Origin: Utricularia gibba
Lineage: Eukaryota; Streptophyta; Magnoliopsida; Lamiales; Lentibulariaceae
Length of the DNA: 64,000 nucleotides
Assembly (NCBI GenBank): GCA_002189035.1
Contig: NEEC01000019.1
Span: 1,116,001-1,180,000 of the forward strand
Direction of reading: 5' to 3'
The translations under genes were made by a program, and so were the position numbers. This document shows, one piece after another, positions 204-59,200 of this stretch (within the stretch, counting starts at the first letter, position 1; the number at the start of each line of letters is the position of its first letter). The notes under the pieces are model-generated. The model worked only from the letters and a program-made list of their open reading frames with translations, did no database searches and was not told where the DNA came from.

Positions 204-1716
204 ATGGCGGAATCGTTGACGACGACGTCAAAGCCTACTACGGCGGAGGATAACCGCATTCACGTGTTCTGGCACGATGGGATGCTGAATCACGATACGG
301 GTAGGGGAGTATTTGATACGGGTATCGATCCGGGTTTTCTCGACGTGCTCGAGAATCACCCAGAGAATTCGGATAGGATCAGGAACATGGTCTCGATTCT
401 GAAAAGGGGACCGATTTCGCCGTTTGTTTGCTGGCACCGTGGGAGGCCTGCTTTGATTTCCGAATTGCTGTACTTTCACACCCAAGGTGAGTCTTTTTTT
501 CGGAGTTTTTACAGTTGTTGACTGTGGCGAATGCGAATTTTGGGCGATTTCGTTGTATTGGCGAATATAATTTGGACACTAGCAGTGAATTCAAAAAGTC
601 AGCAGCTTTGTTCGGATTTTTTGTTTGTTGCACCTATTCTGCTGTTTGGATTGGTGATCTTCTGCTGTCTACCTCGTTGATGCATCCACCACTTTTACCA
701 TGATTACTCCTGCTACTGAATTAGTTGAAATCTGTGATGCAAGCATACGTTGAGGAGCTACAGAATGCGGACGAATCCGGCCCCAAAACCATCTGTGCAG
801 GGACTTTCTTGAACCGGGGATCATTGGATGCTGCAGTTCTCGCAGCCGGAACCTCTTTATCAGCAATGCAGTACATTCTCGATGGATATGCCAAAATCGC
901 GTATGCCTTGGTGCGTCCCCAGGCCATCACGCACAGCCAACTCAAGCAGATGGCTACTGTTTCTTCAACAATGCAGGTATTGCAGTGGAACTAGCTCTCA
1001 GGTCTGGAATCAGCAGGGTAGTTGTCATCGACATTGATGTCCATTATGGAAATGGAACTGCTGAAGGCTTTTATCGTACTGATAACGTCCTCACAATATC
1101 ACTTCACATGAACCATGGATCATGGGGACCCTCCCACCCACAAACCGGAAGTGTCGAGGAGCTCGGCGACAACACTGGTTTTGGGTATAACTTGAATATA
1201 CCATTGCCCAATGGAACAGGAGACAGGGGCTATGCTCATGCGATGAATGAAATATCCCTCCCTGCTGTCAACAAGTTTAAACCGGAGATGATCGTTCTTG
1301 TGGTTGGCCAAGATTCCAGTGCTGTAAGTTAAACGTTCCATTTGCAGGATCAGAATCAGAAAACCATCATATTACATGGTATTTGAACTCACCAGTTTGT
1401 TATCCTCCGTGTTTTTCAGTTTGATCCAAACGGAAGACAGTGCCTGACGATGGAAGGCTACCGGAGAATCGGCCAGGTGGTTCGCGAAATGGCGAACGCC
1501 CACAGCGACGGACGTATTCTGATGGTGCAGGAAGGAGGATACCATGTTACATATTCAGCTTATTGTCTACACGCTCTGCTGGAAGGTTTGCTTGCTGTGC
1601 CTACTCCTCTTCTCCCCGATCCCATCGCCTATTACCCTGAAAATGAAAGCTTTGCCATCTCCGCCATAGCCTCTATCAAGAAGTATTTACAGGAGTCGTC
1701 ACCCCTTTTCCGGTGA
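204..1716 (+). CDS. HDA8: HDA8-like class II histone deacetylase (one apparent frameshift)
   Basis: Zinc-dependent lysine deacetylase resembling Arabidopsis HDA8. Exons read as 204-486, 744-1323 and 1420-1716, with GT-AG introns and consistent phase. The start is the first ATG, and it gives the family-typical opening in which a short variable leader is followed by the FWHDGML block. The metal-binding motif DIDVHYGNGTAEGF and the motif QEGGYH are intact. Within exon 2 the frame shifts by one base at the CCCC run at 917-920, exactly in the catalytic RPPGHH motif; a fifth C would reopen the frame and give about 386 residues, the family length. Because everything downstream is well conserved in the shifted frame, I favour a base-calling error over a decayed gene. 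Arabidopsis HDA8 has about 377 residues. Nothing in the flanks indicates specific regulation. Confidence 0.9.
917..920 (+). other. Apparent 1-base deletion in C run (HDA8-like gene)
   Basis: Four C bases stand where the codons for R-P-P-G need five. Upstream coding is in one frame and downstream coding in the next, with conserved HDAC residues on both sides. It is probably a homopolymer undercall. Confidence 0.8.
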
Positions 1717-1793
1717 CTTCATGGCTCTTTTTGTTGAATTACTGCATTTTAATTCCAAATATTCAAAATATTTTCATATCTTAGTATAATTAA

Positions 1794-1818
1794 ATATATA
1801 TATATATATATATATATT
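1794..1818. repeat. (TA)n microsatellite
   Basis: An uninterrupted AT dinucleotide run of about 25 bases just past the 3' end of the HDA8-like gene. Confidence 0.95.
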
Positions 1819-2227
1819 ATTTTAAATTTATAATCTTATCCAGTGATAAAAAAAACATAAAATTAAGACCCACCAATCACCATCAAGATACTCAAAGTCA
1901 ATCTTTCTGTGTCTGATTGAACCATTGAGAAGCATCCAAATATTGTTACTTTCATTTTTAATAATAAGATAATGATCATACCATTGAGTGTTGATCTGAT
2001 TACTATTTTCTAACATGTTGATATTTTAAATTTATTTATATGATTATATTCATTGGTTTTTAAGCTCTAAAAAAAGAGAATAATTAATTTGAAATATGAG
2101 AAAAAATCTTTATGAAATTCGTAAAGCATTCTCACAACAATTTTACTAAATTATTTAACATGTCGTGATTCATGGTTTTTTTTAATGTTAAATTCGAAAT
2201 CCAAATATAAATTTCAAAGCTTTAAAT

Positions 2228-2252
2228 TATATATATATATATATATATATAT
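2228..2252. repeat. (TA)n microsatellite
   Basis: A second uninterrupted AT dinucleotide run of about 25 bases. Confidence 0.95.
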
Positions 2253-3400
2253 TATGATCTATATTATTATTATATGATATTATACGTTTATTCAATTTTC
2301 ATGATTTTACATTTTTTTCTTTTAAAAAAAATCATACAAAATTAAGAGGTTCCTTTTTTTTAAACACATATAATCTATCCATCCATATCAATATGATATA
2401 CCATCATTGGGGTTCTAATATATATATACTAGATGATTTGACAAAAAACCTCAAGTAGTTTGACTATATGGCCTCTTGAACCTTAGTCCATTTTATTTGA
2501 AACAATTTATATTTATAAAAAAATATTTTTTTATCAAATACAAGTAATTTATATTATAAAAAATACAAATTTATTAACATTTCTTATTTTAAAGAAGCTA
2601 CAAAAACCATACTTCTTTTTAAATATAAAGATATCTTAAAAAATAATTTTTGAAAAATAGAATCTTAAATTTAATATTTAATTAAATTTAAGTAAGACAT
2701 CCAAGTCATGAGACCACAAAACAATTTAGGTAGGCGGTGTCTTAATCATGGCCCATAATTAAATGAAATGACGTGTCAATCAAATTGGGAAAAAAAGAGA
2801 AATAATTTGACTGCGTGTTATATATTATGATCCAATACTATAGAAATTTAATGGTAACATATTGTAGTCACGTGAAGGTGTCTATAATGACCCGAGAGGG
2901 AAGGGAACTAGAAGTCAGAGGTAATAAAAACATTATATCAAGGAACATGAATTCGGTAATAAAGTCTTGTGTCATCACATTGATTAATTATGTGCTATTT
3001 AAGTATGGGGGAAGATTAGGTTAAATAAATGACCAATTGGCTTCCTAATCTGCATTATTGAGGGTGGCGTGGGCGTCTTATTTATAATTGTGGGGTTAGT
3101 TGGTGCACCTTCACATCAACCTTAATAAGGCTCATACTAAATCATTATAAAATAATTAAATGGTGACAAATCCTAGTTTTAGTACTTTTCAAATTTAACT
3201 AAAAATAACAATTTTTAGTGTATTGGAGAAGTTCCGAATAATTTAGAAATCTGATCAGCATGTGTGATGTGTGTGTGAAATGATTCAGAAATTTTACTAT
3301 TTTTAGTAGATTGTGGAATTATTCTATTTTCATAATTTTTTAAAATTCGTGTTTCATAGTTGATATAAGCATGGATATACCATATACTAATATACATAAT

Positions 3401-16733: not shown

Positions 16734-17363
16734 TGGTCACGGCAAACCGAGTTCTCTCCTCCCCAGTTCTCTTGGCGGTTCATCTACAGCACTTTTTAAT
16801 ATTTTAATTAAAAGACATTTTCAACCTCGTAATCGGACACGTGTACTCCAAATATCATTAAGACCTATTTTTTAATGCCACACAATTCTTAGCTAATCAT
16901 CATCCATTAGAAACCATATTATGGTACTAACAAGGTATTAGATAATATATATATATATATAGAAGATTTATACTCAATTTTACATATACCGAAACATGCT
17001 TTTCAAAATATATTATATAAATTAATAATAAATACGATGAATTAATATATTTAATGATTATGAAATAGATAATTAATCTAGAATATGTATTATTAGATGT
17101 AAGTAACTATTTTATTTTTGAAAATAATAAAATAATAAATTTTAAATTAAATTAAAATTAGAAAAACTGTTTTTCAAAGCGGGGAGCGAATATCTCAACC
17201 GGAAATTCAAAAAAGAAGTCAAACAAGCTTTAAGATTATCCCTTTATTTCTACCACAATTTTAGAAATTCTTCACATGCAACGTGATAACCTAACGGTGC
17301 ACAATCCCCCCACCCTCATTTATCTACAACTCCGACCATCCACACCGGCCTGCATTTTCCGGG
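16734..17363. promoter_or_regulatory. Divergent promoter region between NDA copy 2 and the OFP gene
   Basis: 630 bases separate the starts of two divergent genes, so both promoters must lie here. It contains a (TA)n run at 16944-16961 and is otherwise AT-rich. I cannot assign specific elements. Confidence 0.55.
16944..16961. repeat. (TA)n microsatellite
   Basis: A short AT dinucleotide run. Confidence 0.9.
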
Positions 17364-17813
17364 ATGGGGCTCAAGAAGATCTTCACCTCCGGGTGCGGCT
17401 GCCGGACCAAGAACCCTGATGTGTTTCAGCCCAAGCGCAACCCCAATCCCGAGGAGGGTCGACGCCGCCGCTCCTCGTCCTCCGCTGCCGCCAAGGATGA
17501 TGCTACTGCTGCTACTGTCACCAAGATCAAAGACAGCGTTGCGGTTGTGAAGGAATCCGACGACCCTTACCGAGATTTCCAGCAGTCGCTAGCTGAGATG
17601 ATCGTGGAGAAGGAGATATATGACGAGGATGGTCTCCGGGAGCTTCTCCGGCGGTTCTTGGAGCTGAATCCACGACACCATCATGGGGTGATAGTCCGAG
17701 CCTTTGAGGATATATGCCTCTTCGAACGATCCGAGGGAAGTAAAGGATCCGTTCTAAGCAGCTCTAGGGATGGGAGCTCTAGTTTTGTGTCGAGCAACAG
17801 GAATGGTGACTGA
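17364..17813 (+). CDS. OFP: OVATE family protein (short transcription repressor)
   Basis: Intronless gene for 149 residues, matching the short OFP group (Arabidopsis OFP6 about 159). OVATE family proteins repress transcription, often together with TALE homeodomain partners, and affect organ shape and secondary-wall traits. The N-terminus MGLKKIF is followed by a Cys/basic and Ser-rich linker. The OVATE domain runs from about 66 to 120, starting DDPYRDFQQSLAEMIVEKEI, with the LRELLRRFLELNP helix and the terminal VRAFEDIC. The tail is Ser-rich. The 5' region lies next to the divergent NDA gene. The assignment to the family is firm; the subgroup is not. Confidence 0.93.
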   Translation: MGLKKIFTSGCGCRTKNPDVFQPKRNPNPEEGRRRRSSSSAAAKDDATAATVTKIKDSVAVVKESDDPYRDFQQSLAEMIVEKEIYDEDGLRELLRRFLELNPRHHHGVIVRAFEDICLFERSEGSKGSVLSSSRDGSSSFVSSNRNGD

Positions 17814-18084
17814 GGTTTTTTCGTTTCCAGTTCAGATGAACTCCTCCTGTACTAAGTATTCTCATGTCTAGATTAAACGTGGGCACAAACACACATTATA
17901 ATATAACCTTTTTCATATGAAATCCCGTTGGTCTGATGCAATGTGACTCCCTTCCGAAATAACCATTAGAAGAACTCCAGAATCCCCTTTTACAAAGCGC
18001 AGTCACGTTCACTGTACAAATAACACTCGTATCCACAAACTTCTGTAACAAAACCAACAGTTCTTTTTTCGTTGTCTGGATTGG

Positions 18085-20607
18085 TCATGACTGATGGGCC
18101 CTGAGAACTGCTTGATAGACCATGTCAATGAACTGATTGTCCTGTTCATGCAAACAAGCAAGGGATCATAAGGTTCTAGTGAATTTCACGATTTCACCGG
18201 GCAAAAACTAAAGGAAAAAAAAGACTATGAACAGAGTATGATACGAGTAATGAAAACGATGAGCTGGTTGGTGAATGAAAACAGTGATTGGAGTTTAATG
18301 GGGTTTGGGGAAAAGAGTGCATACCTGTACAAGCATCTGAAGGGCTTCCCTGATCTTGTCTCTACTTATAACCGGGCCATAAATAGGTGCTGGAGCCGGA
18401 GTAAGTGAAGGTGGTGGTGTTGGAGGTGGAAATGGCTGAAGCAGCGGAGTTCCATATGGTCGTTGTCCATTCACGTTATGACTCAGAGGTGGGGCAGTGG
18501 GAATGGAGGAAGATATGGGTGGAATTATCAGTGGAGCAGTTGAAGGGGATGGTGCAAAAAAGGACGATGGTTTCACCAAATCAGAAGAACGCTTGATACC
18601 AACACCAGGTTCGGAAATGTCAAGAAGTGACAATAAAGGGTTAGGAGAAGGCATGCTTGAAGGCACCTGAGATACTGGCAAGAATGGCATAGAAACAACA
18701 GGTGGATCAACAGGAGCACTGCCTTGCGGAGGTTGATATGGCATTGCTACATTAGGACCACTTCCACTCTTCACAGCAGTATGTGCCGGAAGGGACGGTG
18801 CAGGAGATTGATATGTGTGTCTAGAGGTTGCACCAGGAGGATTCTCCACATTTACAGCAGACTGCATGCCACCGGCCACTTTAATTAACAAAAATCATCC
18901 AACAGGAATTTGGTTTCATGACTGAATCGGAAATTTAATGTAAATAATGTGTTTTAGGTCAGCAGAAATGACTGGATCCTACCTAACACAGTTGTACATA
19001 TATGCAATACACATGCTGAGACATGAAAGAAATTTCCTGCATCTGGTTAAAAAATACCGGCAACTGAGAAACTAGAATCATTCCTATCGTTTAATATAAG
19101 CATGCATTATGAATGCACAAGCCTATCACGGATAAAATAAGGATTACTTCCCTAAGAAAAGGAAACATCCTATTAGTCACTTTTTTCTTGAACAGACTAC
19201 ACACATTATGGATGCACATCCCATGGGCTCCTATATTTTACCATTTGATGATGCACACAACATTGAAATGAAGAAGATGCTGAGCAAAGAGGCATACACT
19301 GAAAAAATTTACAAATGCTCGGTCATCAGGAGTGATTGCATGGCCAGTGGACGAAGCAGATGATGGCTCCAGGGGCCATCTATAACTTCCATGGTAGGAA
19401 CAGCCTCAAGTTCTTCAAATTCGCTATATTAAACAAGGGACGGAGTCAATTGTAGTCTCTTACTGAAAATATTAGCCAACACTGTATATGCCCATCAACT
19501 AAAATAAGAGTTTGCATCTCGTATCATATACAAAAACATGGCAAGATCACAGCCAGGAAGGAATACGAGCAAGGCTTGTTGTTATATAATAATTATCAGT
19601 AACCATTTCATACCTAAGTGTGATTGCAGCACCAGAATAAGTATTTACCAATTTTATAGAACTGGAATAAAATAGCCTAAAAACGTACCTTCTAGAAGGA
19701 GAAATTTTTGTTTTCCCGGGAACCTTTGCATACGCATTAAGCAACCTAAAAACAAACAAGGCCAATGAATATGAACTGTTATAAACAACAAACAAACAGA
19801 GCAACGTGAACAATAGTGACTTGGTTTGGAAGATATGAAAACATGAAAAATAAAATTAAAGATGATACGAATGCTTAATTCTAAGTAACAAGATAAAGAG
19901 CCAATATCCACATACCTGGTAAACAAATTTGCTACCTCTTCACATTCATGTGCATTGTAGAACCAAATGCCATTTACCTCTTGAGAAGCATTTCGATATA
20001 ATAGATATGGAACCTGAACCTCAAACTCGAAATCTTCCAGGAGATTCTCCACCAAATTTTCTGCTCATAACAACGATCCAACATTCAAACAAAAGTGAGC
20101 AGTCAGGAGCATAAATTGAACATTTTGGGATCAAGAAGAATTTAATCAAGAACACCCTAACCAGATTACGTACTAACCAGTGCTGCGACGATTCATCACT
20201 ATGAACTGAAACCTCGGTTGGGCATTCCTGATAAAAATATAAAAATTCAAGAAAACTGCAAATTATCTAAAATGAAACAGAAAGACCGCAATCACATCAC
20301 CTCTTAACGACAAAAAGGGATCCCTCAACATCCTTCCTACTCTGCGAACGAAAATTCATCTCAAACATCAACAATAAAAAATAAACAGAAAATCAAGGCA
20401 ATTGACTCCGCCCGATGCTGTTTCCTCTGAGCTGAATCGTGAACTCACCCATTGGCTTGTATCGATGTTGAATTCATAAAAGGTGACATGAGCGGCGGTG
20501 ATGAGAATTTCCTCCACAAACGGATCAATACGCTGCAACACGGTCAAATTCAGCAACTTGGTGCTCTTTTCGTCCAAGTTGGGCGTCAATTTCCCGTTCT
20601 GAGCCAT
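18085..20607 (-). CDS. DCP1: mRNA-decapping enzyme subunit DCP1 (one apparent frameshift)
   Basis: Cofactor of the DCP2 decapping enzyme in cytoplasmic processing bodies. Exons in transcript order: 20607-20449, 20341-20301, 20227-20178, 20060-19916, 19745-19689, 19423-19298, 18861-18325, 18141-18085, about 390 residues. The EVH1-like DCP1 domain fills the first five exons and includes LLNLTVLQRIDPFVEEI, FQFIVMNRRS, LLYRNASQEVNGIWFYN and CEEVANLF. A long Pro/Ser-rich linker follows with PFPPPTPPPSL, then the C-terminal helix PVISRDKIREAL that suits the DCP1 trimerisation region. In exon 6 the frame breaks at the GGGG run at 19372-19375 (C run on the coding strand). One more base gives the family-like segment PLEPSS through FVNFFS and rejoins exon 7 in phase. 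The acceptor at 18862 is chosen because it keeps that phase. Confidence 0.9.
19372..19375 (-). other. Apparent 1-base deletion in C run (DCP1)
   Basis: The coding strand has four C where G-P-L needs five. Reading on without the extra base ends at a stop about 20 codons later, while the shifted frame is family-like. Confidence 0.75.
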
Positions 20608-21483
20608 CCCTCAAAGCACTTTCTCAACTCTACGGCACTAGCGATCAATAAGCAAACCTTCAAGACCACAAAAACAGAGGGTACACACTGCAAACCCTCG
20701 GAAAGGATATGTATATGAGGTAGATGCCGAAGCCGTTTTTTCTTTCTTTTTTTTTTAATTTAACTAAATCAAGTTTTTTTTTAATTCACATTTTAATTGA
20801 AATCACAAACAGTGAAATTACACATACGCCCCAAGTTAATTAAAATATTTAACTAATAATATTTTCATTTTTATAATATAATTTCAAAAATGGTACGCTG
20901 TGAGGTTCCAAATGCAATACATGTGAACTATGCATCAAGATTCAGGTTTTAATGGTTGCTGAATCTTCCTAAACTGGGAAAGGAATTCCTTCCCCATTGA
21001 TGTGCATACATTCAGGGATCCATAGCTCCCTGGAGTTCATAGAATCACAACTGAGCAGGATCATGCCAGGGACACAGTGCAGTTAGGAGTTCTTACAGAA
21101 GTTCAGAATCCTGGCAGGAATGTTCTATTCTCCAGAAAATGCAACTGGGGAAACATCAGAATCGCCAAGGGAGGATTTAGCCGGAGTCTCATCACCATCA
21201 GATGTAGTTTGGATGAAAGGAAACCAACAAAAGCTTTGATCTTTTCCCCACATGGATTACTCAAATGTATGCTGCAGGAGTGAGTGTGTGCCATCAGCAA
21301 CGTTTGTGCATCCAAGTCAAGGAAAGCAGGCACCATTAGTAATGTAAAGAGGAGGTTTCAGTCAGACATTGAAGAGTTGAAATGGGAATCAACTCAAGCT
21401 GAGGTAGATCAAAGAATTTGGGTAGAGTTTAAGAAAGGCCTGAGAGCAACAAGATTGCTTTTTTTTTTTTTTGGAATGAATCG
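20608..21483. other. Intergenic between DCP1 and the S40-like gene
   Basis: Contains the DCP1 promoter and, closer to 21.4 kb, probably the 3' UTR of the S40-like gene. The stretch 20930-21430 has balanced composition with open frames on both strands (21077-21283 + and 21103-21336 -). I recognise no domain in either and do not call a gene. Confidence 0.5.
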
Positions 21484-22116: not shown

Positions 22117-22542
22117 CAGGTATCGCGTGGTAGAGAGTCCCTGAGGTTTTCCTTTCTATATTTATATTGGAGTGTAGAATCCAGTGTAACGCAGCAAACT
22201 CGGCGCATAAAAACCGCGCTTCAAAGCGTTGTACCCTAATTGCTCTCCCACTCGCCTCGCAAAACGGTGTCGTTTAACCCTGTAGTAAGGACCTTCTAAT
22301 TTATTTAATAATATACTAGTAAATAATCATAGATAAACAGATAAATAAAATTCCTTTATGGAAATCTTTGTGAAGTGAGTAGATGGTTCTCAAATTGTTA
22401 TTTCAAGTTCATGGGAAGAAGTTCAGTTTGCAGCATTCACGTATGATGTAAAAAGCAGCGTCTGGGAATAAGAAGTTGAAGCTGTCACAAGTATGCTGAC
22501 ACCTTATTCTCATTGGAGTAGAAGAATTACCTAAGGCGTTGC
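22117..22542. other. Intergenic (S40-like promoter and downstream 3' UTR)
   Basis: AT-rich toward 22300-22380. It must hold the promoter of the S40-like gene and the 3' UTR of the next minus-strand gene. No gene seen. Confidence 0.55.
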
Positions 22543-34581: not shown

Positions 34582-34589
34582 ATAAATAT
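34582..34589 (+). promoter_or_regulatory. TATA box candidate for FAR copy B
   Basis: ATAAATAT lies 72 bases before the start codon. The surrounding 120 bases are nearly the same as upstream of copy C, where the site reads TATAAATA. Confidence 0.55.
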
Positions 34590-34660
34590 GCCATAATGGA
34601 GGATCATGGAAATCACAACACCAGCCAAAACTTTGCCTCTTTTTTATATGTAATCAGTCC

Positions 34661-42338: not shown

Positions 42339-44636
42339 ATGGAGTTTGGCAGTGTCCTTGAGTTTCTAAACGAGAGTGTGATTCTTGTTACCGGAGGAGC
42401 AGGTTTTCTTGCCAAGGGTAAGCCTCTCAACAATTTTTTTTTTTTTTTTTTTTTTTTTTGCAACAATAAGATTGATATTAGAGTGATTTATAATATTCTA
42501 CAGTATTTGTGGAGAAGGTTCTGAGGGTTCAGCCAAATGTCAAGAAGCTCTACATCCTCCTCAGGGCTTCCGATTCGAACTCAGCGCTGCTTCGCTTCCA
42601 GAATGAAGTAGAAAAATAGCCAATATTTTTTAGTTTTTTAAAACTATTTGCAATGCCACTTCTTGTCTTGTTTGCAGATTCTAGCGAAGGAATTGTTCAC
42701 GGTTTTGAAAGAACGACATGGCACCAATTTTGGTTCATGGATTTCTGAAAAAGTTGTTGCTGTTGGTGGAGATGTTTCCCTTGAAAATTTCGGTATCAAG
42801 GAGTCTGCAATTCTCCATCAGATGTTAAAAGAAGTTGAAGTCGTCGTCCACTTAGCTGCAAACACAAGATTCACTGAAAGGTGAACGAATTCCTACTGCA
42901 TTTTCATAACCCCTTTTTCTAAAGCTTTGGTTATTCGATGCGTAGATATGATGTATCCTTTCAAGTGAACACATTGGGAGCCAAACATGCGCTTGATTTC
43001 TCAAAAGGTTGCACCAAGTTGAAGGCTTTTGTTCATGTTTCAACAGGTTGGTTGTTTGTGTTTGTTTCTTCACAAAAACCATAATGTTTTGCACTTAAGT
43101 TATTCTTGGTTATCAAGCACAGCATATGCATGCCGGGAGAAAGATGGTCGTATACTTGAAAAGCCCTTGAGAATGAGGGAAGTTTTGAATGGATCATCAG
43201 GGCTGGACATCGACTTTGAGAAGGATTTGGTTGATGAAACAATAGCGCAGCTCCAAGTCGAAAACGCCTCAAAACAACAGATCAAATCACATATGAGAAA
43301 TCTTGGTACTCAAAGGTTAGATCGATTTTACTATTCGGATAATGCAATCTGAGCAATTAATCGAACATTTTAGGATTGGCATACATATTTTCTCGATCTA
43401 TCGAATTTTTAATCTCGATATATCAATTCTTGTGTTTACAATGTTTCAAAAGCCTGCTCACTACCCTTTTCATGATACAGAGCAAGAAAACATGGATGGG
43501 CAAATACCTATGTGTTCACCAAGGCAATGGGGGAGATGCTCATCGGAGACTTGAAAGGGAAATTGCCTGTGGTCATCGTACGGCCGACCATGGTGACCAG
43601 CACCTACATGGAGCCATTCCCTGGCTGGGTTGATGTTGTTGGGTAATTAATTTACTCAATAAATAAATAAAGTTTGGGAATTTATATAATTCCAGATTAG
43701 GGTTTCATTCTAAATTCATGAGATTAACGGATCTATTTCAAAGACATGTCTCAGGACAATTGGTGGGCTTACCGTACCATATGGCAAGGGGAAACTCAAA
43801 GTCTTCCCTGGTGACCCCAATACGATCATGGATTTTGTGAGTCTGACGTGCGTTTGTGAATTAGCATAAACTTGACGTTGATGATGATCGGAAAGCTGAC
43901 ATTTGGGTTCAGATTCCGGTGGACATGGTGGTGAATGTCATGCTCGTGGCCACCGTGAAGCACGCCAATGAGGGAAATAGTGCAATCTACCAAATCGGGT
44001 CCTCGGCAAGAAATCCTTCCATACTAAAAATGTGGCCACATTACGGTTTCCGATACTTCACCAGCAACCCTCTGATAGACGCGCAAGGACGGCCGATCCG
44101 AGTCCACCGGTGTAGACTGATAAGTAGCATGAAGAGCTTCCACGTATACTTCAACATGAAGTACAAGCTTCCCTTGAAGGTTCATCCCGCCTTCACCCTA
44201 TTTCCAGAGGATGCCAAAGGATATAAATATTCTGTATTTCTTTTTCAGTGTCTCCAAATCATCAACACGATCAGCTTTGGCCAGTTCGACGAAACATACA
44301 GCAGGAATCGAAGAAAGATAGATTCAGCTTCTCGATTGGTACAGGGTTTCAAGCCTTATATCTTCTTCAAAGGATGGTGAGAAATCATTATAATCGTTTC
44401 TAACATTCACTGAGGGTTTGCCAGATTATTATATGATCTGATAACGTGTTCTCTAACATTCACTGAGGTGTTCCTGCAGCTTTGATGACAGCAACACTGA
44501 GAATCTAAGAAGGGCGATGAGGGAAGCCGATGCCGCGGAGAAAGATTTATTCTTCTTCGATCCAAAGGTTATTGACTGGGAGGAGTATGCGGTGAAGATC
44601 CACATGCCCGGGCTGGTGAGACATGCCCTGAAATAA
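42339..44636 (+). CDS. FAR: Fatty acyl-CoA reductase, tandem copy C (intact)
   Basis: The only uninterrupted member of the trio, 491 residues. Exons: 42339-42417, 42504-42607, 42678-42880, 42946-43046, 43123-43315, 43481-43642, 43755-43836, 43913-44179, 44249-44376, 44480-44636. An in-frame ATG at 42288 could add 17 residues, but copies A and B align from [10 protein letters not shown], so 42339 is preferred. It has the NAD(P)-binding motif [10 protein letters not shown], the catalytic YVFTK and a FAR_C domain. Compared with copies A and B, AYVCGEK reads AYACREK here and exon 7 ends in F instead of L, so some conserved positions have drifted. Intron 1 holds a run of 26 T. It probably makes fatty alcohols at the ER or plastid; there is no clear N-terminal plastid peptide, which favours an ER location. 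Confidence 0.93.
42434..42459 (+). repeat. Poly-T run of 26 in FAR C intron 1
   Basis: A homopolymer of T next to the donor site. Its length is likely polymorphic or poorly determined. Confidence 0.9.
44110..44602 (+). repeat. 493-bp tract identical to FAR copy B
   Basis: Partner of 36520-37012, offset exactly 7590 bases with no insertion or deletion. Confidence 0.88.
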
Positions 44637-45299: not shown

Positions 45300-46060
45300 C
45301 AGTATGGCAGAAAAAAATTACACGAACAAATCTATGCGTGACAACCTAGAATTTCAATAGTTGATAGGAGCTTTGCACTACCTAACAGCTATTAGACCAT
45401 ACATGACATTTGCAGTATCCTACGTATCCAAGTTCATCCAAGCATGGCACACACATCACATGAATATAGTCAAACGTATTCTCAAATATCTCAATTCTAC
45501 CTTAAACCTAGGCATGTATTACAAGAAAGGTACTAACCCTATTCTTCAAGTCTTTCTTGATTCAGACTTTGTGGTTGATGAGATTTAGTGCAAATCCACC
45601 ATCGGGTATCTGTTCAATCTTAAATCCGATGCATTTGCCTGTCGCAAACAAAATGTCACGGTGCAATCCTCAGCAGAAGTCGAATACATCGCACTAACCA
45701 CTGCCACCAATTATGCCCACTGGCCAATCAAGATTTGTGAAAATCTAAGAATCCCCGTCCGAAAGCCAGTGGTCCTGAAAATCTAAAATAAATATCGTAT
45801 TAGCATTATTTAATACCCAATCATGTTTAGAAGAATCAAACATATCAAAGTGAAGTATCATAATCTTCCGGAATATGTGAAGTAAGTTTCAATAACACTG
45901 GAATACCTACCTTTCGAACATCAAGTGGCCAACATCCTCACCAAATTCTTATTTCCAAACAACTTTAGGAGAATAAGCGACATGTTAGGGTTGAGATGAA
46001 ACCCTCTTGAAACTCCACCAAAAGTCTCAATTGCAATCTCAAGGAGGAATGTTGGAGTAT
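45300..46060 (+). mobile_element. Ty1/copia fragment (RT C-terminus, RNase H, polypurine tract)
   Basis: The translation at 45361-45588 (LIGALHYLTAIRPYMTFAVS at its start) is the copia connection/RNase H region. After a stop it continues as STIGYLF and SSAEVEYIALTTA, the RNase H motif. The order is right for a plus-strand element, ending in AAGGAGGAATGTTGGAG at about 46041, which looks like a polypurine tract followed by the TGTTGGAG start of a 3' LTR. It is broken by stops, and no 5' half is seen. Confidence 0.8.
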
Positions 46061-46256
46061 GAGGATGTAATTGAGACTACAGCGGATCTCAAGAATCAGC
46101 TGGACCGGAAGAACAGGTCCAATGACCTCGAGAAGCTCTGCCGCAAAGAGAAAACGCTGTTGAAGGAGAAGCAAGGCACAGCTGCGGTGGGTTTAATTAT
46201 GATGAGCCCTACTTCTCTATATTCATACAACGCAATATCTATCAGCATGCTCTACG
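46061..46256 (+). other. Unassigned segment between copia end and BAHD fragment
   Basis: An open frame runs through here (46007-46270) with a charged, helix-like translation (DLKNQLDRKNRSNDLEKLC). It may be LTR sequence or a captured gene piece. I cannot identify it. Confidence 0.4.
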
Positions 46257-46829
46257 GGCTCATAGTGTAGTTCATCAACTTTTGCCGCGGCATAAGCCCA
46301 CAAGATCCTGTTGCCGAAATATATGAGTCAGGAACTCTAGGTTTTGTCAAACAGGAGCGAAAGTCGACCCGGATTCGGACCCGGGTTGTCTCCGACCCGT
46401 TCAGGCGGCGAGCTTTGGTCACCGAACGCCAAAGATGAGCGTACAGGCCTTCAAAAGTGCTGAAATGCCTATCAATGGAGGAGGCTTTGGCTTTGATCTC
46501 AGAGATGAAGTCGGCGGTGAGAAGAAACTTTTCAGATCGAATGTCTTTGAGGCGATCAGCTTCTTCGGGGCTGTTTATCATGTTTTTGGGCATGAACTCC
46601 ACTCCCCTGTGATCAAACTCGAAAACGGGAGGATCACGAGGGAGAAAAATGGTACGGTCTCGAAATGGCAGATGGGGCGATTTCCAGATTTCGAGAAGCT
46701 TTCCCCATGCATCAAAAAAACAGCTCGATGAATTGGCATCACTCACTTTGTGGTGTGAGGTGAAAGCCAGCACCATCGATCCGAAAGAGAATCTCGTGAT
46801 TTGAACTTGAGCGATCTCTTTCACACCGT
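46257..46829 (-). pseudogene. Truncated BAHD acyltransferase fragment
   Basis: A partial copy of the intact BAHD gene at 47958-49262. It covers the segment from GVKEIAQVQITRF, through the catalytic HHKVSDA, to about residue 310. The first roughly 123 codons and the C-terminal third, including the DFGxG motif, are absent. The 5' break is abrupt after CACACCGT at 46829, where AT-rich DNA takes over. A 2-base insertion (TATATTTC instead of TATTTC on the coding strand, near 46318-46324) shifts the frame before the end. It cannot make a working enzyme. It lies between copia sequence and a FAR 3'-flank repeat, so it was probably moved by the same rearrangement that shuffled that flank. Confidence 0.88.
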
Positions 46830-46867
46830 TAATATTATATTTAAAATCTGATTTGAAATATAATATT

Positions 46868-47530
46868 AACGGTTTGAAAAACATGATTTAATTAATTATA
46901 TAATTATTTTACAAAGCACACATGTATATATTTGAAATTATAAAACGAAACTATCAAACCCAATTTTGAAAGTTCTCAGAATTATATCTAATGAAAAAAA
47001 ATAAAATAATTCCTCCATATTTTAAAATTTCAATCATCTTCCAGATATTCAACTGAAGCTTAATTTGTCATGATTTTCGGCGATGGTCAACACAGAAAAA
47101 AAAAGGCAGTTGAATTTTAGAAAAAAACGTCTCGTAATTTTGACAAAAATAACTTATACTATGATTTGGTCCAATCATCGTGACACAATTCTGAGGGAAT
47201 ATTCCCCTAAATCCTAAATCCTTAATCTTTTGGTTTTACCGATAAACTTAGTTTATCAAGAAATATTTGCGTTTTAAAAACCGTGATTTTATCGAATTTG
47301 TATCGTGTTGAAACATAAATCATTTATTAAAGTGATTGGATTAAATTGAAATCATTAAAAATAGAAAAAAAAATGAATTATGATCCAATTACAATCTAAC
47401 TATAATTTAATACTTTTTAATAAGAAAAATATTTTTTTTCAAAAAAATGAATGGTTAAGTTGTTTGTATAACCGGTTAATGATTTTTTGAATATTGAAAA
47501 AACTGAAAAACACTGTTTAAAGTGGTCATC
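46868..47530. repeat. FAR 3'-flank repeat, copy 3 (no FAR gene attached)
   Basis: Homologous to 37080-37930, sharing the same landmarks, but no FAR exon lies in front of it. Confidence 0.85.
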
Positions 47531-47957: not shown

Positions 47958-49262
47958 CTATTCCAGTGAATAGAACACGTTCTTGAACACTTTCATGTCC
48001 TCGCTGAAGAGAGAAGTATAAACTTCGATGCTCCCGTCGTCTGTGAACGGCGGCAGAAGGTACGTATCGCCCTCTAACGGAGAGAAGCACGGCGAGAACG
48101 CGTACGGGCCGCCGCATCCGAAGTCAAGATCATGAAACGGGAACCTTAGCCAACTTCCGGCATCGATGTCCGGGTACAGTATCATCTTTTCTGCTTCAAC
48201 CACCGTGTTGGGAATGAGATCCTCCGCCCCGGCACGGTAATGTGCGAAATCGATGAACGATTTGATGTAGTTATCGTCTATGGCGACGACGGCTTCATGC
48301 AGAAGGGTGGCTGCGTAATCTATAGGCTCATACAGTAGCTCATCAACTTTTGCCGAAGCATAAGCCCACAAGATCATGTTACCGAAATATGAGCCAGGAA
48401 CTTTAGGGTTTTTCATACGGGAGCGACAGTCGACGGGGATTCGGACCCGGGTTGTCTCCGACCCGTTCAGGCGGCGAGCTTTGGTCACCGAACGCCAAAG
48501 ATGAGCGTACAGGCTTTCAAAAGTGCTGAAATGCCGATCAGTGGAGCAGGTTTTGGCTTTGATCTTAGAGATGAAGTCGGCGGTGAGAAGAAACTTTTCA
48601 GATCGAATGTCATTGAGGCGATCAGCTTCCTCCGGGCTGTTTCTCATGTTTCTGGGCATGAACTCTACTCCCCTGTGATCAAACTCGAAAACGGGAGGAT
48701 CACGAGGGACAAAAATGGTACGGTCTCGGAATGGCAGAGGGGTGATTTCGAGATTTCGAGAAGCTTTCCCCCATGCAGCCAAAAAACAGCTCGATGAATT
48801 GGCATCACTGACTTTGTGGTGCGAGGTGAAAGCCAGCAGCATCGATCCGCAAGAGAATCTCGTGATTTGAACTTGAGCGATCTCTTTCACACCGTGAAGA
48901 GGAGGGTGGAGGCTCCGCACCGCCGGGTCGGAGGGCATGAATGAAGCGGTTTCGTCAAGATTCCGATCAGCGACAGCCTCCACGAACCTAACCCCTTCAT
49001 CGTTACACACTATCACCACCTCCCCATCCTCACCAATCCTCAGGCGGCCGGCCATTTCCCGGTACACGGCTAAGACCTTCCCCAGTCCGAGTTCGATTTC
49101 AGAGTTCGATGGGGTGGGAGGGCGGTAGGCGTAGAGAACAGCTACGTGCATGTTCCATGCCATCTTGTCAAAGACTGACATGGGACGAATCTCCACCGGA
49201 GCCGGCCGACATCCGCCGTAGAATGGCTTCACGAGCTTTGAGCTTTGGATTGTAACCTTCAT
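47958..49262 (-). CDS. BAHD N-hydroxycinnamoyl transferase (agmatine/putrescine/tryptamine type)
   Basis: Intronless gene for 434 residues. BAHD enzymes move an acyl group from acyl-CoA to an acceptor in the cytosol. The opening MKVTIQSSKLVKPFYGG and the block PMSVFDKMAWNMHVAVLYAY resemble the plant phenolamide group that couples hydroxycinnamoyl-CoA to agmatine, putrescine or tryptamine; that acceptor is inferred, not proven. The catalytic HxxxD is HKVSD at 149-153. The second BAHD motif, normally DFGWG, reads DFGCG at 380-384, with Trp changed to Cys. The motif is structural, so activity may persist. A TATA-like TTATAAAT lies about 45 bases upstream (49306-49313). A truncated relative lies 1.1 kb downstream. 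Confidence 0.87.
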   Translation of the reverse strand: MKVTIQSSKLVKPFYGGCRPAPVEIRPMSVFDKMAWNMHVAVLYAYRPPTPSNSEIELGLGKVLAVYREMAGRLRIGEDGEVVIVCNDEGVRFVEAVADRNLDETASFMPSDPAVRSLHPPLHGVKEIAQVQITRFSCGSMLLAFTSHHKVSDANSSSCFLAAWGKASRNLEITPLPFRDRTIFVPRDPPVFEFDHRGVEFMPRNMRNSPEEADRLNDIRSEKFLLTADFISKIKAKTCSTDRHFSTFESLYAHLWRSVTKARRLNGSETTRVRIPVDCRSRMKNPKVPGSYFGNMILWAYASAKVDELLYEPIDYAATLLHEAVVAIDDNYIKSFIDFAHYRAGAEDLIPNTVVEAEKMILYPDIDAGSWLRFPFHDLDFGCGGPYAFSPCFSPLEGDTYLLPPFTDDGSIEVYTSLFSEDMKVFKNVFYSLE

Positions 49263-49305
49263 GGCTGGCAGGGATGGATGAATCCATGGTCACTTGGTGA
49301 TCGGA

Positions 49306-51291: not shown

Positions 51292-51326
51292 GCGAGAAGT
51301 CCTCTAGCTAATTGACACGGTTCCTC

Positions 51327-51332: not shown

Positions 51333-51403
51333 GCGATGAATCTGAAATCTTCTTTAGCCACTAAAAGCCTGTGATCCAACGGAAAGGAAACAGCCTTAAA
51401 ATA

Positions 51404-52162
51404 ATGGCGCCAAAAAGGCGGCGGAGAAAGACGGTGGTTACGACGAGGAAAGTGGTGGAGGAAACCTTGAAGGTGGTGGTGGCGGATGCTCCGGAGGAAG
51501 AGGAGGAAGAAACTGGGGACACATATTCCACCGAAAAACACGAAAATATCAGAACAATTCCCGTTCAGGAAACACCCCCGCCGGAGCCGGAACAGCGACA
51601 CGAAACCCCGCCCGCCTCCAAACCGGATACCCGAGAATCAGTGACACCAGAGGAACAAGTGATTCAAGAAATCTCCCCTGTTTCGGCCCAGGAAACCACC
51701 ATGGAAATCGGAACACCGAAAGTAACCGCCTCTTCCGCACCTGAAACAATATCTGAACTCGCGGTGGAGGAGCCCCAAGGCGTCGCCGAAACTCATACAA
51801 AGACCATAGGTTTACCCCACAAGAGGAGGCACATGAAAAAGAGTGGCAGTAGAAAGGGGCGCGAATCCAAGGGTTTAGGGTACAAAAGGTATCTACTGAA
51901 GGTGATGAAGCAAGTGCATCCGGAAATGGGAATCTCCCAGATGGCGATGACCGTCATCAACAACATGATGTCCGACGTTTTCGAGCGGCTAGCGCAATCC
52001 GCGGCAGACGTACAGCGCCACGCCGGCATGCGAACGATGTCGTATCGAGAGGTCGAGGCGGCGGTGAAGCTCGTCCTCCCCGGCGATCTGGGCCGCCACG
52101 CCCTCTCGGAAGCAAGTAAAGCTATAAAGAATTACATAGCGTATGAGTCCGTACAGTCGTGA
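51404..52162 (+). CDS. H2B.8: H2B.8-like histone H2B variant with long disordered N-terminus
   Basis: Intronless gene for 252 residues, against about 150 for canonical plant H2B. Residues 1-157 are low-complexity. MAPKRRRRK comes first, then an acidic run of six Glu near 31, many Pro/Glu/Thr repeats such as PPPEPEQRHETPP, and a basic patch KRRHMKKSGSRKGRESKG before the fold. The histone fold starts at about 158, with YKRYLLKVMKQVHPEMGIS, INNMMSDVFERLAQ and YREVEAAVKLVLPGDL. The end reads SKAIKNYIAYESVQS, where the ubiquitinated Lys of canonical H2B (in KAVTKF) appears replaced by Asn. The length and the VVEETLKV motif near the start match Arabidopsis H2B.8 (about 243), which condenses sperm chromatin through its disordered tail. 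Pollen-specific use here is inference. The start is the ATG at 51404; upstream codons in the frame lack an ATG. Confidence 0.88.
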   Translation: MAPKRRRRKTVVTTRKVVEETLKVVVADAPEEEEEETGDTYSTEKHENIRTIPVQETPPPEPEQRHETPPASKPDTRESVTPEEQVIQEISPVSAQETTMEIGTPKVTASSAPETISELAVEEPQGVAETHTKTIGLPHKRRHMKKSGSRKGRESKGLGYKRYLLKVMKQVHPEMGISQMAMTVINNMMSDVFERLAQSAADVQRHAGMRTMSYREVEAAVKLVLPGDLGRHALSEASKAIKNYIAYESVQS

Positions 52163-52359: not shown

Positions 52360-53504
52360 TCAATAGGTGTAAGAATGGCAGGGGATGAGGTTTGTGGATC
52401 TCGGTGGCGAAAACGGCGTCGTTATTGGTCCACAGAAGACCATAAGGTGGCGGCGGATCTTCATGACGCCGATCTTCCATCGGATGCTGGCCCAGATGTT
52501 CACGTACAAGTCCAGACTACCTGCCGCCCGACCGGCTCTGATATCCCGGGCCACGTTGCTGTAAAGCTGAATGTCTCTTGGCGCCAAGTACAGATCCACA
52601 TGGGTGACGTTCCTCCTCCGCTGGTAAAACGGACGAACGTCGTTCAAAGCCAACTTCTGATCCTCGTACACTGTCGTCGCCTGTTTAAAAAGAAGCCGAA
52701 ACGTCAGCTTCGTCCTCTACATTTGCTGAAATCTGATTCAATTCAATTAGAAAAAAAAGAGCCTCTCTGGATGGTGGACTGCACCTGTATTTCGTCATAG
52801 TAGACGGACATTCGATGGTTAGGGTTCGTGGCTTGGAGCCCCATACGAATGTCGGCAGAATTAAGGTGATCTTGGGTCAAGTTGAAGCTTGTGAAGGAGC
52901 CCGTTTCTATGGAGAACCTAAGCTTCTTCGGGTTTACGGCGAGCCAGGTGATGAGGGCGATGATTCCAAGTAACAGTATCAAGGAAAGTATGGCGCATAT
53001 GATGAATCTCCCCAGAGTCGGACTACAGCCCTGTTGGTACGGTTGAGTGGAGCGACGGTGATCCTCCTCTGGATCAGTCCGATGATGGTCATCCTGGTGT
53101 GGATGAGTCCGATGACGGCCATCTTGGTTTGGCTGAGTCCGACGATGGTCATGTTCACCTGGTTGAGCCGGATGATGGTCAAGCTGACTTGGCTGAGTCC
53201 GATCACGGCCATCTTGCTTTGGTTGAGTCCGACGATGGTCATGCTGACCTGCTTGAGCCGGATGATGGTCAAGCTGACTTGGCTGAGTCCGATCACGGCC
53301 ATCTTGGTTTGGTTGAGTCCGACGATGGTCATGCTGCCCTTGCTGAGCCGGATGATGGTCAAGCTGACTTGGCTGACTCCGGCGCCGGTCATGCTGGTTA
53401 GGAAGATTGGGACGATGGCCATGCTTCCGCGGTTGATGGTTTGTTTGCAGCGGGGCAAAGTCGCCTTGCGCGGTGGTTATAGGGAGCTGCTGTGTGTTCC
53501 CCAT
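52360..53504 (-). CDS. NHL/LEA_2 membrane protein with N-terminal 10-residue repeats
   Basis: Exons in transcript order: 53504-52785 and 52680-52360, 346 residues. The C-terminal half is a standard NHL protein: a membrane segment at about 167-190 (FIICAILSLILLLGIIALIT), the NPN...YY signature in ATNPNHRMSVYYDEI, and a LEA_2 domain ending WKIGVMKIRRH. The N-terminal roughly 150 residues are unusual: tandem 10-residue units of the types TQPSQLDHHP, AQAGQHDHRR and TQPKQDGRDR, arranged in higher-order 30-residue blocks, rich in His, Gln, Asp and Arg and without hydrophobics. In the type II topology of the family this segment would face the cytosol. An in-frame ATG at 53588 could add 28 residues; I prefer 53504 because the extension looks like UTR. 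The role is unknown. Confidence 0.82.
53030..53420 (-). repeat. 30-bp coding minisatellite (90-bp higher-order units)
   Basis: Plus-strand motifs such as TTGGCTGAGTCCGA, GATGGTCATGCTG and GAGCCGGATGATGGTCAAGC recur every 90 bases. Unit length is a multiple of three, so the protein frame stays open in every copy. This also opens spurious frames on the plus strand. Confidence 0.9.
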
Positions 53505-56231
53505 GGCAGACAAGGAGGCTCTTCGTTGTCCTGTGAAGGGGGAGGTTGGATGCTTTATAGAGCAGGAGAAATGGAAAATGAAGCACATCTGTGCTGTAAT
53601 GTCCCTTTCTGTTTATGTCAACAATGGAGGAAGCCAACATTTCTTGCCTGCGACTCAAGACACAGATGCCCTCTCGTGCAATGTTCTGCATCACAACCCT
53701 TTGTTCGTCCTCCTCCTTTTTCGAAATTCTAAGCCTCCATAAAATCACTTTTTCTGGTTGTCAGATGGAGAGATGAAGACAAAGAATTGCTTGGGGATAA
53801 AGTTAAAGGCATTCCCAAACCATCTCCAAAGTTGTTCTTCTTCCATTTCCATTGCTTTCGTACGTACATAATGTGATTGGGCCACATTTCCAAGAAGCCC
53901 ATGTAATTGGGTCTCGGGCCTTCTTCAAAAATTTTCACAACACCCTTCCCAGCTTACAATCACTCATTTGATATAACTTATCCAGAAGCGTTTTTTAAAA
54001 AGTGCTTTTAAAAAATAAAAATTGTAGGTTTTTCAAGATCTAAATTTTTAAATTATTTGAAGTAGAAATCGATTATACGTAATAATAAAGCTGCTTCTAA
54101 AACGTTTTTCTAGAAATATAAAATATTTCAAATAGCGTACATATTTTTATTTAGTATTGTTTAGAACCGACTCTCAAAAATTTAGAACATCAAGTTTTTC
54201 ACATTTTCAAAAATGAGAAACACTTCTAAATTTTTAATTTTTTTGAATGTACCCAACCTTAGTATTCTATGTTCTTATTATACGATATTTTCGTTTTAAA
54301 TACCTAATAATATGATTTTCTATTTTTCCATTTCAACAAAAAAACTTCTTATAAGATTATGATATTTTATTTTTCTAAGTATGTTATTTTTTCTATTTAT
54401 AATTAATTTGATTTATCATCACCACGACTTATATTCTACTCCATTTAGCCACTCGTTGTCCATGGTGAATATCATGTTCCACCATTAGCATAAACTTGAG
54501 TTTGGTTTTAATACTAGATATCATCATTAATATTTTTATTATATAATATTGTCTATTTTGGATGATCAATTCTAAGATTTATGTTCTCTAATTCTAGAAA
54601 AAAAGTTTTAGTAAAAAAATAGTAAGATTTGTATATATTAAACACATTTCGTTTTCGTCTATAACCAATGTAAAATATTATATTACTAACTTATATTGAT
54701 AACAACCTCTCACCAAAAAATAACTGATGATGTGGCTTATTTTGGATAATAATATTCTTAAATCGATCATCTTCATGTGTTTTTTTAGATCATTTTAATT
54801 GCAATTTTTACTTTGACATGTTTCATTAATTAATACCATGTTATTTAATAATTTTCAATAAATACCCCAATATTCTATAATAAGCTTGAATGCAATATGA
54901 AAAACCTTTTCTACTTCATAAACAAGATTATTGAAGTTAAAAAATTATTATATCATAAAAAGAAATTTATTGTGATATAATATTAAAAGTTTATGATAAA
55001 TTTTATAGTTTTATATACAAAATACAAAAATTCCTTTGATCCAGCATATTTTAAAAACTAAAAAAATGTTCAAATTTAGTACTTTAATAATGTAACGACC
55101 TGCGCACATCTAGCACGATATTGTCCGTTTTGGACACCCAATCCTCACGGTTTTACGTTTTCATCACATATCGTCCTGACTTCCCAGGGGGTCACCCATC
55201 CTCACATTACCCTTCGGCAATCACGCTTAACCCTAGTGTTCCTGTGAAGGATACTCCGTCGTGCTGAGAAAAAGCCTTGTGTTAAATTTGTAGGGTGTAA
55301 CCTCTTAATCTCATCCTCTCTCCCGTTGGTAATCGATGTGAGATTCGTCTAAGGTACTTTTCTCTTCAACCCTTCCGCGGGGCGGGTCCTTACAATAAGC
55401 TCACATTCGCTTAAGGTATGATGTATAATTTAGTGTAACTTTGGGGGTTTGTTGTAAATTACGCATTTTGCAACAAAAAGCAATAATCATTAAAAGACCC
55501 CAAGATGGAGGGAAGAAACTGATTGGAAGATGAATGTGAAGCCGAGGATGTATCATATGAAATTACAAGATAGCCCTCTCGTGGCTTTCCAAATTCCTTG
55601 TTTCCCTTTCTTTTTGCCCTTTGAAAAAATATCTGTTTTGATTCTCCCTCAGATTTCTTCTTCTGTTTTGATTCTCCGTTGTTGATCCATCAACGCAGGA
55701 GGCCGCCTTGTTCTGCCTTCACAACTTGAGGTACGCTAACCCTCGCGGCGGCGGTGGTGGTGTGGCTCTCAATTGTGGAGAGCGTCGCCGGGCGTTTGCA
55801 TTTAGGTCTAATTTTTACCCACGAACGGATACTTTTGACTACCGAACATCGTGTTTTGCGGTGGGATCTAGACTAATTGACTCTGGAATTGATTCTCCGG
55901 CGCCTTCGTCATTGGTGCATTCTTGGACCCTGAGTTGTCTCTGCAGTGGGGTTTTTGCCCGTCTGTTTTAGTTTTTAGAAATCAACCAACACAAGTATAA
56001 TTCTATTGTCGGAAGATTGGAATTAGCTTTTTTTTATACAAATTGACACAGTTAGTATAACTCTGATATACATTGGAGTCCTGTCCTGTATTCAGTTAAA
56101 TCTGTGGGATTTCTAAGTGTATGCGGCACTATATTTGTTCTAATTTGTAGGACATTGCCCTTTCTTACATCATGGATTTGATGGTTGTCTTCAGCTGATG
56201 TCGTAATTCAGTTTTCAGACGCTTGAACGGC
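53505..56231. other. Intergenic with a TRIM LTR; 5' UTR of the PHD gene
   Basis: 53505-53960 is the upstream region of the NHL gene. 54000-55080 is AT-rich with no feature I can support. 55091-55405 is a TRIM LTR, listed separately. From about 55690 the PHD gene's 5' UTR likely begins. A donor at 55730 (TTGAG/GTACGC) and an acceptor ending at 56218 (TTTTCAG) suggest a UTR intron. Confidence 0.55.
55091..55405 (-). mobile_element. Cassandra-like TRIM solo LTR with 5S rRNA-derived promoter
   Basis: Starts TGTAACGACC and ends near CA, about 315 bases. On the minus strand, 55231-55172 reads GGTTAAGCGTG... then GGATGGGTGACC followed by CCCTGGGAAGTC, which matches the internal control region of plant 5S rRNA. 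LTRs carrying a 5S-like segment are the mark of Cassandra terminal-repeat retrotransposons in miniature. Only one LTR is seen, so it is probably a solo LTR. The strand given is that of the 5S-like segment; the LTR itself may be written in the plus direction. I found no clear target-site duplication. Confidence 0.75.
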
Positions 56232-59200
56232 ATGGTTTCGGGTGATATGGGTGTTTCTTCTGTTCGTACTGGGATGAAGAGGGAGTTTGCAATGATGATG
56301 AAGGCACAACTGGAGCTGGGTGCCCTATCTGTTGGTCCAAGGAGAATGACGAGGTCCCAGAGTTCTAGTAGTTTCTACAGGGATATGAGAATTCATGCCA
56401 GAACTATTAAGAAGGTTTATTCCAAGCGAGTAAAGAAGGATAAGAAATTACAAGTGACGGTGAAGGATGTTAAGGATACGAACACAAAGCATTTTTCTAG
56501 TGATGATGAAGAGGCTGATGGGAGCATAATTCAGCCGGGGTCTAATGCTCCCCTGAGGGATGATCTTGAAAATGCTGGAGCCAATTTGGTTATACCTCTA
56601 TCTGAGGAATCAATTCCTGCAGAGAGGAATGCACCTGAAAGTACTGGAGGTGATTTGCTTCAACGTTTGTGCGAGGAATCAATTCCTGCAGACGGGAGTG
56701 TACCTGAAAATGTTGCAGTTGATTTGGTTCAACCTTTGCGTGATGAATCAATTCCTGAAGATATGCGTATACTAGAAAATGTTGGAGCCGGTTTGGGCCA
56801 AACTTTGTTTGAGGAATCAATTCCTGAAAAGATGAATATACCGGAAAATGATGGATCTGGTTGTGAGGAATCCATTGCTGAAGAGCAAAGTGTAAATCAA
56901 AATACTGGATGCGATGATATTCAACCTTCGTGCACTGAATCAGTTTCTCTTATTGAAGTAGGTCTAAAGAATGGCTCTGAACCATTACAGGATAATTTAG
57001 AGTCCATAGAGAAGCTAGAGGTGGAAATTAGGGAGCGTGATTTGGAAATCAGCACTACGAAGCTTTCTTTAGTTGAAAGCTTCTCCCCCAGGAAGTGTTC
57101 CCTCGTAACTCAGTTGCTGAGGGTCGTAACATAGGATTCAAAAGAAGTATAGAATTTATAAGTGGATATTCGGAGATGCCTTCAAGAAGACTGACTAGGT
57201 CATCTTTGAAGGTGCAGAATGATGATATGGAGGACAGAAATAGTGAATTGGTGATAGAGACTCAGAGCAGATTGACTACGACCAGTTGTCCTTCAAAGCT
57301 AGAAATGAAAATGTCTAAAAAGATTAAGTTGAAGAGAACTCCAAAAAGACTAAAGGATCTCTTAAACACGGGACTACTTGAAGGATTGCATGTTCGATAT
57401 GTTCATGGTGGGAAGGTGAGAGAGAATGTGGCTTGTGATTTGCAGTCAGTAGTTTTGTCCATTCTCAATTGATTTTTTCTCTGGTGTTCAGGTGAACAAA
57501 CGTGCTAGATATGAACTTGCAGGAGTTATTCAGGGAAATGGAATACTATGTTCTTGTGATGAATGCAATGGAAGAAAGGTAATTAGCCGTTTCAGATTGA
57601 AATTACATTTGTAAGGCAATACATAAGTTTCTCAATTTCTGCTGCTACAGGTGATCACACCTAACAAATTCGAATTGCATGCTCATAGTGGAAATAAGCG
57701 CCCACCCGAGTACATTTTTTTGGAGAATGGAAGAAGCCTTAGAGATGTTTTGAATGCTTGCAAGGAGAATATTTCGGACTCACTGGATCAGGTGATATTG
57801 GATGCCATTGGCCGTGTAAGTTACACAACAGCTTTCTGCCTTGATTGCAAAGGTGAATATTCATAGTTCTTACGTTGTCTGCTTTTTATAATAATATATG
57901 TGTTTAGTTACCACAGTGAATCTGTATTTTTAGGCATTGTACCTGAAGCTGGTGTCGGGAGACCGATGCTTCTTTGCAATTCATGTGCTGTGGTGAGAGA
58001 GGCTGATACAGGTGACTCATATATTAGTGATGATGCAAATAGGTAACATCTCCGTCTCTTGGGATGACAACGACAGCTTAAATATGATCTAGTATAAACG
58101 TCACTCTCAATGAGGACCTATGCTCCTCTACACGTAGCTTTAACTGGAGTACCTGCGAGCCGAAAATTCATCCTGATTTTTTCCATGTATTTAGGTCTCA
58201 AATGGTTGTTTCACTAGCTTTGATCTCGCCACTATCTGAATGTGGAGATCTGGAAAGTCACCCGATTTCCTCAAATGGTCATACTCAGTTGAAGGGTAAA
58301 GGAAGGCTGACACGGAAGTGAGTATTCTTCAGTTGTTTTCATCAAAGTATACATAAGTAGAAAACTTCAAAACGTGTGAACAAATATTGCATCCAGTACC
58401 ACTGACTGCCCTTGAGTTTGTAATATTTCAGGGACTTAAAAATGCACAAGTATGTTTTCTCGGAGGATATTCTTCCTGATGGCACAGTTTTATCATATTT
58501 CATGCATGGAAAGGTGAATTCTGAATGTTTTATATTCCCATTCAACTCATTTTTACAGATTTGCACCCAAATCATTGTTAATCGCTGTTTTTGTTCATCA
58601 TGTCGAGCAGAAAAGGCTCGAGGGTGTTAAAAAGGATGGCGGCATTTTGTGCACATGCTGCAATGAAGTGGTAAGTAAATGGGTTTTTTTAGATAATGTT
58701 AAATAACTGGATTTCATATTATGTCTTTTGACTTGTATCTCTGGACAACTTTGGTTCGGTAATGGTAAACAGGTCAGCCCATCGCAGTTTGAGGCTCATG
58801 CAGGTTTCCCTTCCCGGAGGAAGCCGTAAGTACTGTCCTAATTTCTTATGCTGTATTTTATGACTTTTCAGTTGGTATTTACATGTGTCTGTTGTCTAAA
58901 AATTATATTGGAGCTAATGTGTTGTCTTCAGGTACATGAGCATATACACCTCAAATGGTGTATCACTGCATCAGCTCTCTCTTGAACTCTCCAAAAATGG
59001 TAGATGTTCCAGCGTAGAAAACGATGATCTTTGTTCTATATGTGAGGATGGAGGACAGCTTTTATGCTGTGAAAACTGCCCTCGAGCTTTTCACTCTGGT
59101 TGGGGAATCCACTCTTTCATTTGAAAGATTGTATGCTTTTTATTCTACAACCTTCCTAGTGTTTGTGCTCAAGCACATTTTTTCTTGTTGCGCAGAGTGT

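Follow-up and report, generated by a model that had tools for sequence, protein, structure and literature searches.

Six single-base frame breaks in a 64-kb window of a plant genome assembly are most probably consensus errors at G/C runs

What does it mean when five otherwise recognizable genes in one stretch of DNA appear to have lost their reading frame through the absence of single bases? Did these genes decay in the plant, or did the bases disappear while the assembly was being made? The window, by which we mean the whole 64,000-nucleotide stretch analyzed, is C142:1116001-1180000 of a 100,091,633-base, 516-contig assembly, very probably that of the bladderwort Utricularia gibba. The original prediction placed six such losses in it, and direct reading of the DNA located every run exactly where it had been placed. 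The genes and sites are as follows (window positions):

204-486, 744-1323 and 1420-1716, plus strand: exons of an HDA8-like histone deacetylase gene; one N completes the frame
917-920, plus strand: HDA8-like break, CCCC in exon 2, inside the RP-x-GHHA active-site motif
20607-18085, minus strand: DCP1 gene, 8 exons; one N completes the frame
19372-19375, minus strand: DCP1 break, GGGG (CCCC on the coding strand) in exon 6
27245-29636, plus strand: FAR A (fatty acyl-CoA reductase), 10 exons, two breaks
28344-28347, plus strand: first FAR A break, GGGG in exon 5
29190-29191, plus strand: second FAR A break, GG in exon 8
34661-37046, plus strand: FAR B, 10 exons, one break
35438-35440, plus strand: FAR B break, GGG in exon 5
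42339-44636, plus strand: FAR C, intact tandem copy, 10 exons, uninterrupted frame, all introns GT-AG
57085-57089, plus strand: PHD-finger gene break, CCCCC between two overlapping open frames

Gene models were made directly from the sequence, with one unknown base, N, at each site. With one N per site the HDA8-like gene, FAR A, FAR B and DCP1 each became a single open frame from ATG to stop, their introns all GT-AG and in phase, as had been predicted; without it, their frames reach stops shortly 3′ of the site. The claim that each gene needs exactly one extra base therefore stands for these four, and is no more than probable for the PHD gene. Conservation on both sides of each break, which had also been claimed, was borne out by homologs for the same four genes; for the upstream side of the PHD gene no homolog was detected. 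All six sites are losses of one base rather than gains, judged at the PHD site from frame overlap alone, and the models of the four genes contain no nonsense changes, splice-site losses, base gains or larger indels. A change of GG to GGG does suffice at 29190-29191, as had been proposed, but the missing base there is not unique, T serving equally well; downstream, the frame and similarity of FAR A resume directly. We found no redundant copies of window stretches 1-3000 and 55400-61200 in the assembly, and a comparison of 17001-37000 with it returned only diverged paralogs and repeats, with no redundant copy.

The Pfam matches of the HDA8-like gene, DCP1 and FAR A are complete. With its N, the HDA8-like protein, whose gene was the only HDA8-type one detected in the genome, aligns without gaps to HDAC6 and other HDACs through RP-x-GHHA and matches Hist_deacetyl at 1.2e-81 over profile positions 1-297 of 298. 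DCP1 matches its own Pfam family at 6.5e-46, and a DCP1 paralog on C375 is exactly one base longer at the site and intact there. In FAR A the NAD_binding_4 match (3.9e-72) spans the first break.

The tandem FAR genes are particularly informative because FAR C is an internal control for the exon lengths of its two broken neighbors. The first nine exons are equal in length in FAR A, FAR B and FAR C except for exon 5 (192, 192 and 193 nt, respectively) and exon 8 (266, 267 and 267 nt), that is, precisely the exons in which the breaks lie. The exon 5 base was lost at different positions in FAR A and FAR B, so these were two independent events and not one inherited lesion. Two relatives of FAR B have one more base at its site, one in the window at 43096-43336 (90% identical) and one on C2 (85%). 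Omega for FAR A lies at 0.16-0.33 before, between and after its two breaks; for FAR B against FAR C it is 0.30 before the break and 0.57 after it, on small counts. Synonymous divergence between FAR B and FAR C is 0.053 over the last 160 codons versus 0.165 over the first 166, and this lower dS suggests gene conversion. Close relatives also occur at C2:3299231-3301636. Degenerate copia-like retrotransposon remains, judged by eye from their frames, flank the FAR genes at 32000-34400 and 45300-46050, and stretches resembling 30800-31260 are present at many places in the assembly.

Three other features were seen downstream of the FAR genes. A partial BAHD acyltransferase copy (46255-46887, minus strand, profile positions 126-298 of 434) adjoins an intact one (47961-49289, minus strand, profile positions 1-432). 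The plus-strand frame at 51365-52159 encodes 265 amino acids, with a long N-terminal extension followed by a histone fold (PF00125, 4.6e-12). The repetitive stretch at 52974-53729 is open in several frames on both strands, with repeats of the ESDDGHADL/EPDDGQADLAESDHGHLGL type, and is only putatively coding.

The PHD site is the weakest of the six because the case for it rests on the overlap of two frames, 56199-57131 upstream and 57077-57469 downstream, which share only 57077-57131. Could the frame change instead reflect an unrecognized intron or a downstream start? Removing 56958-57091 as a 134-nt intron with GT-AG borders would bring the two frames into register at phase 0, as would 191 GT-AG pairs in our scan, and the upstream part of the gene, for which no Pfam match or paralog was detected, offers no homolog to oppose such a model. 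Set against this, 56958-57091 is open for 44 codons, its trinucleotide composition is exon-like (log-odds 0.068, the maximum of 36 introns in the window being 0.04), and the CCCCC run matches the pattern of loss seen across the genome. For this gene, then, an intron or downstream start is unlikely, while still worth keeping in mind, and a loss of one base from CCCCC is the probable explanation of the overlapping frames.

Is the window unusual within its assembly? We searched the whole assembly with profiles of GRAS, a family of near-intronless transcription factors, and of HSP70. Of about 40 GRAS genes, about 25 have the domain uninterrupted in a single frame and 15 are broken; in the broken genes the HMM fragments abut or overlap in a shifted frame, mostly as would follow from one missing base. 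HSP70 yielded about six breaks in about 5 genes, so that the breaks extend beyond one gene class. Two further cases were read from the table of UDPGT matches, a family that we considered as a third and left uncounted since its open frames are often short and introns and pseudogenes confound them. From roughly 26 breaks in roughly 75 kb of coding DNA of the GRAS and HSP70 families, both counts being approximate, we estimate a rate of about 0.35 breaks per kb for these two families. The window holds an estimated 21 kb of coding DNA, for which about seven breaks would be expected; six were found, and in this respect the window is typical of the assembly.

Read by eye, most of the GRAS breaks coincide with a homopolymer (CCCC, CCCCC, CCCCCC, GGGG or GGGGGG). 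In five to six GRAS paralogs the break falls at or beside a P-G-G-P-P motif, at nearly the same profile position, and they share this segment because the codons for P-G-G-P-P make long G/C runs:

C375:1928019, C142:1759661, C2:1407997, C1:4158406 and C244:1855129: GRAS hot-spot loci (L039-L044), segment R-P-G-G-P-P-x-x-R-I-T-G

This segment is a hot spot of false frameshifts, and it could be mistaken for a conserved programmed site. Some breaks in these families may be genuine: the GRAS genes at C3:261k and C244:2105k carry several lesions each and may be true pseudogenes, and the HSP70 copies at C241:17791-17794 and C304:2236266-2236269, which are 16 substitutions apart over 3.75 kb, share one frame break near GGGGG that can equally be read as the lack of one base or as a surplus of two, and that is possibly a real lesion.

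Do the breaks favor particular bases and run lengths? We ran an automatic scan over the extracted loci in which breaks and simulated random deletions (n = 320) were handled by one and the same pipeline, with equal freedom of placement. Choosing the exact best base by peptide similarity proved too noisy and favored the residues of the reference paralog; a tolerance and the simulated null were used instead. Of the 23 breaks that the scan returned, 19 were single-base losses; among the four that were not simple one-base losses, two (L034 and L046) read as two successive losses. Restoring the base recreated a G/C run of at least 4 in 13 of the 19 losses versus 34 of 320 simulated deletions (10.6%; P ~2e-8), and a run of at least 5 in 7 of the 19 versus 2 of 320 (0.6%; P ~2e-8). 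Among G/C runs of at least 4, 13 were lost and 243 intact, whereas among A/T runs of at least 4 only one was lost and 409 were intact (P 3e-5). Fifty-one kb of intact coding DNA contains 722, 196, 40, 7 and 0 G/C runs of 3, 4, 5, 6 and 7, respectively; synonymous shuffling leads to an expectation of 185, 56, 13 and 3.6 runs of 4, 5, 6 and 7, plus about 1.9 longer ones. Hence where about 5.5 runs of at least 7 were expected none are left in this intact DNA, and the runs restored at detected breaks reach 7 repeatedly. The loss is strongly G/C-biased and rises with run length. In the literature consulted we found no paper stating that G/C runs are lost in preference to A/T runs with this sequencing chemistry, and none that joins U. 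gibba with homopolymer frameshifts.

If the missing bases were lost in assembly, then two consensus calls of the same DNA should differ at such runs. The contigs C316 and C412 represent the same locus over 4.1 kb and differ by one substitution and 10 indels, all 10 of which are losses in C316. One of them, GGG in C316 versus GGGG in C412, interrupts a GRAS gene in C316 whose counterpart in C412 reads through 615 aa. Ten one-sided losses with a single substitution are not expected of two real haplotypes. This replicate is one locus, and since C316 is small (38 kb) and the compared stretch lies near its end, it may be more error-prone than the large contigs. C241 (31 kb) and C304 were rejected as a second replicate, being too diverged (16 substitutions). 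Small contigs duplicate parts of large ones at 99.5-99.8% identity (C316/C412, C241/C304), so that redundant contigs or haplotigs remain in the assembly and would inflate copy numbers. In addition, C1, C2, C409, C505 and C507 are sized in exact multiples of 2,500 bases (8,500,000; 6,192,500; 2,492,500; 3,452,500; and 642,500), as if cut on a grid.

We consider it highly probable (roughly 0.93), on the strength of these comparisons within the assembly, that errors in the consensus of a long-read-only assembly, namely undercalled homopolymers, account for the six breaks, and not biology. Under this explanation the raw long reads would undercall G/C runs, the consensus step would retain the short call, and the missing single bases, nearly all of them from G or C runs, are very probably present in the DNA of the plant. 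Homopolymer undercalling was the cause originally proposed, and the proposal gains support from four things expected of it that were found: the breaks occur genome-wide, run in one direction, depend on run length and vary between consensus calls of the same DNA. Might the frameshifts nevertheless be real, with recent pseudogenization of all five genes or, failing that, of the tandem FAR copies? In favor of this, FAR has spare members in tandem, the comparison of FAR B with FAR C gives a somewhat raised omega beyond the break (on small counts), and more than one lesion is present in a few GRAS genes outside the window. However, the four modeled genes show nothing except single-base losses, omega for FAR A stays at 0.16-0.33 throughout, no second HDA8-type gene turned up in the genome, and about one in three GRAS genes would need to be nonfunctional, all through the same type of lesion. 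We therefore regard decay of these genes as very unlikely.

Explanations in which the short runs are real but have another origin are less probable still. A lineage that contracts G/C homopolymers exceptionally fast, with many conserved genes expressed through slippage or compensation, would account for the short runs, and we give this little credence. If mutation shortened G/C runs, for example through altered repair in the lineage, and left genuine frameshifts genome-wide, an identical dependence on run length and the same base bias would result. Selection would, however, have to let such breaks persist in conserved single genes, and the process leaves the 10 one-sided losses with one substitution between C316 and C412 unexplained, so that we hold it to be extremely improbable. 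Homopolymers can be slippery, and the location of the breaks in homopolymers is compatible with the idea that programmed ribosomal frameshifting or transcriptional slippage restores the proteins from genuinely short genes. Against this, the site is not conserved, given that FAR A and FAR B differ within exon 5 and that FAR C and the DCP1 paralog are intact, and the sites are spread genome-wide across unrelated genes; of all the explanations weighed here this is the one we find hardest to credit. Consensus error at G/C runs thus remains our preferred reading.

The published U. gibba assembly is reportedly PacBio-only, made with HGAP and Quiver. It is described as an HGAP assembly at 88x with 581 contigs and an N50 of 3.4 Mb (PMC5793159). 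If the assembly studied here is the U. gibba reference, it underlies claims of gene loss and genome reduction for a model carnivorous plant. At about 0.35 false breaks per kb, automatic annotation would split or pseudogenize a large share of genes, chiefly those with motifs encoded by G/C runs such as the P-G-G-P-P of GRAS proteins. With false breaks occurring genome-wide, claims of gene loss from this assembly that are based on frameshifts need read support.

We conclude that what is seen here is most probably an artifact of a known kind, arising in sequencing and consensus, the genome-wide reach of which merits a warning to users. As in true unitary or duplicate pseudogenes, frames are broken in genes that are otherwise recognizable; unlike in these, there is one lesion type, the modeled genes have no nonsense or splice lesions, and unrelated conserved genes are affected. 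The closest parallel is provided by Kastor, the authors of which reported that homopolymer-length (indel) errors fragment genes in long-read-only assemblies of small genomes, and that correction reduced annotated pseudogenes from 23.3% to 5.6% (PMC12007338). Our cases resemble theirs in being mostly homopolymer deletions that create false frameshifts and pseudogenes. They differ in that they come from a plant assembly that is apparently PacBio-only, in that G/C runs are hit and A/T runs almost spared, and in that they could be recognized without reads, from paralogs and redundant contigs.
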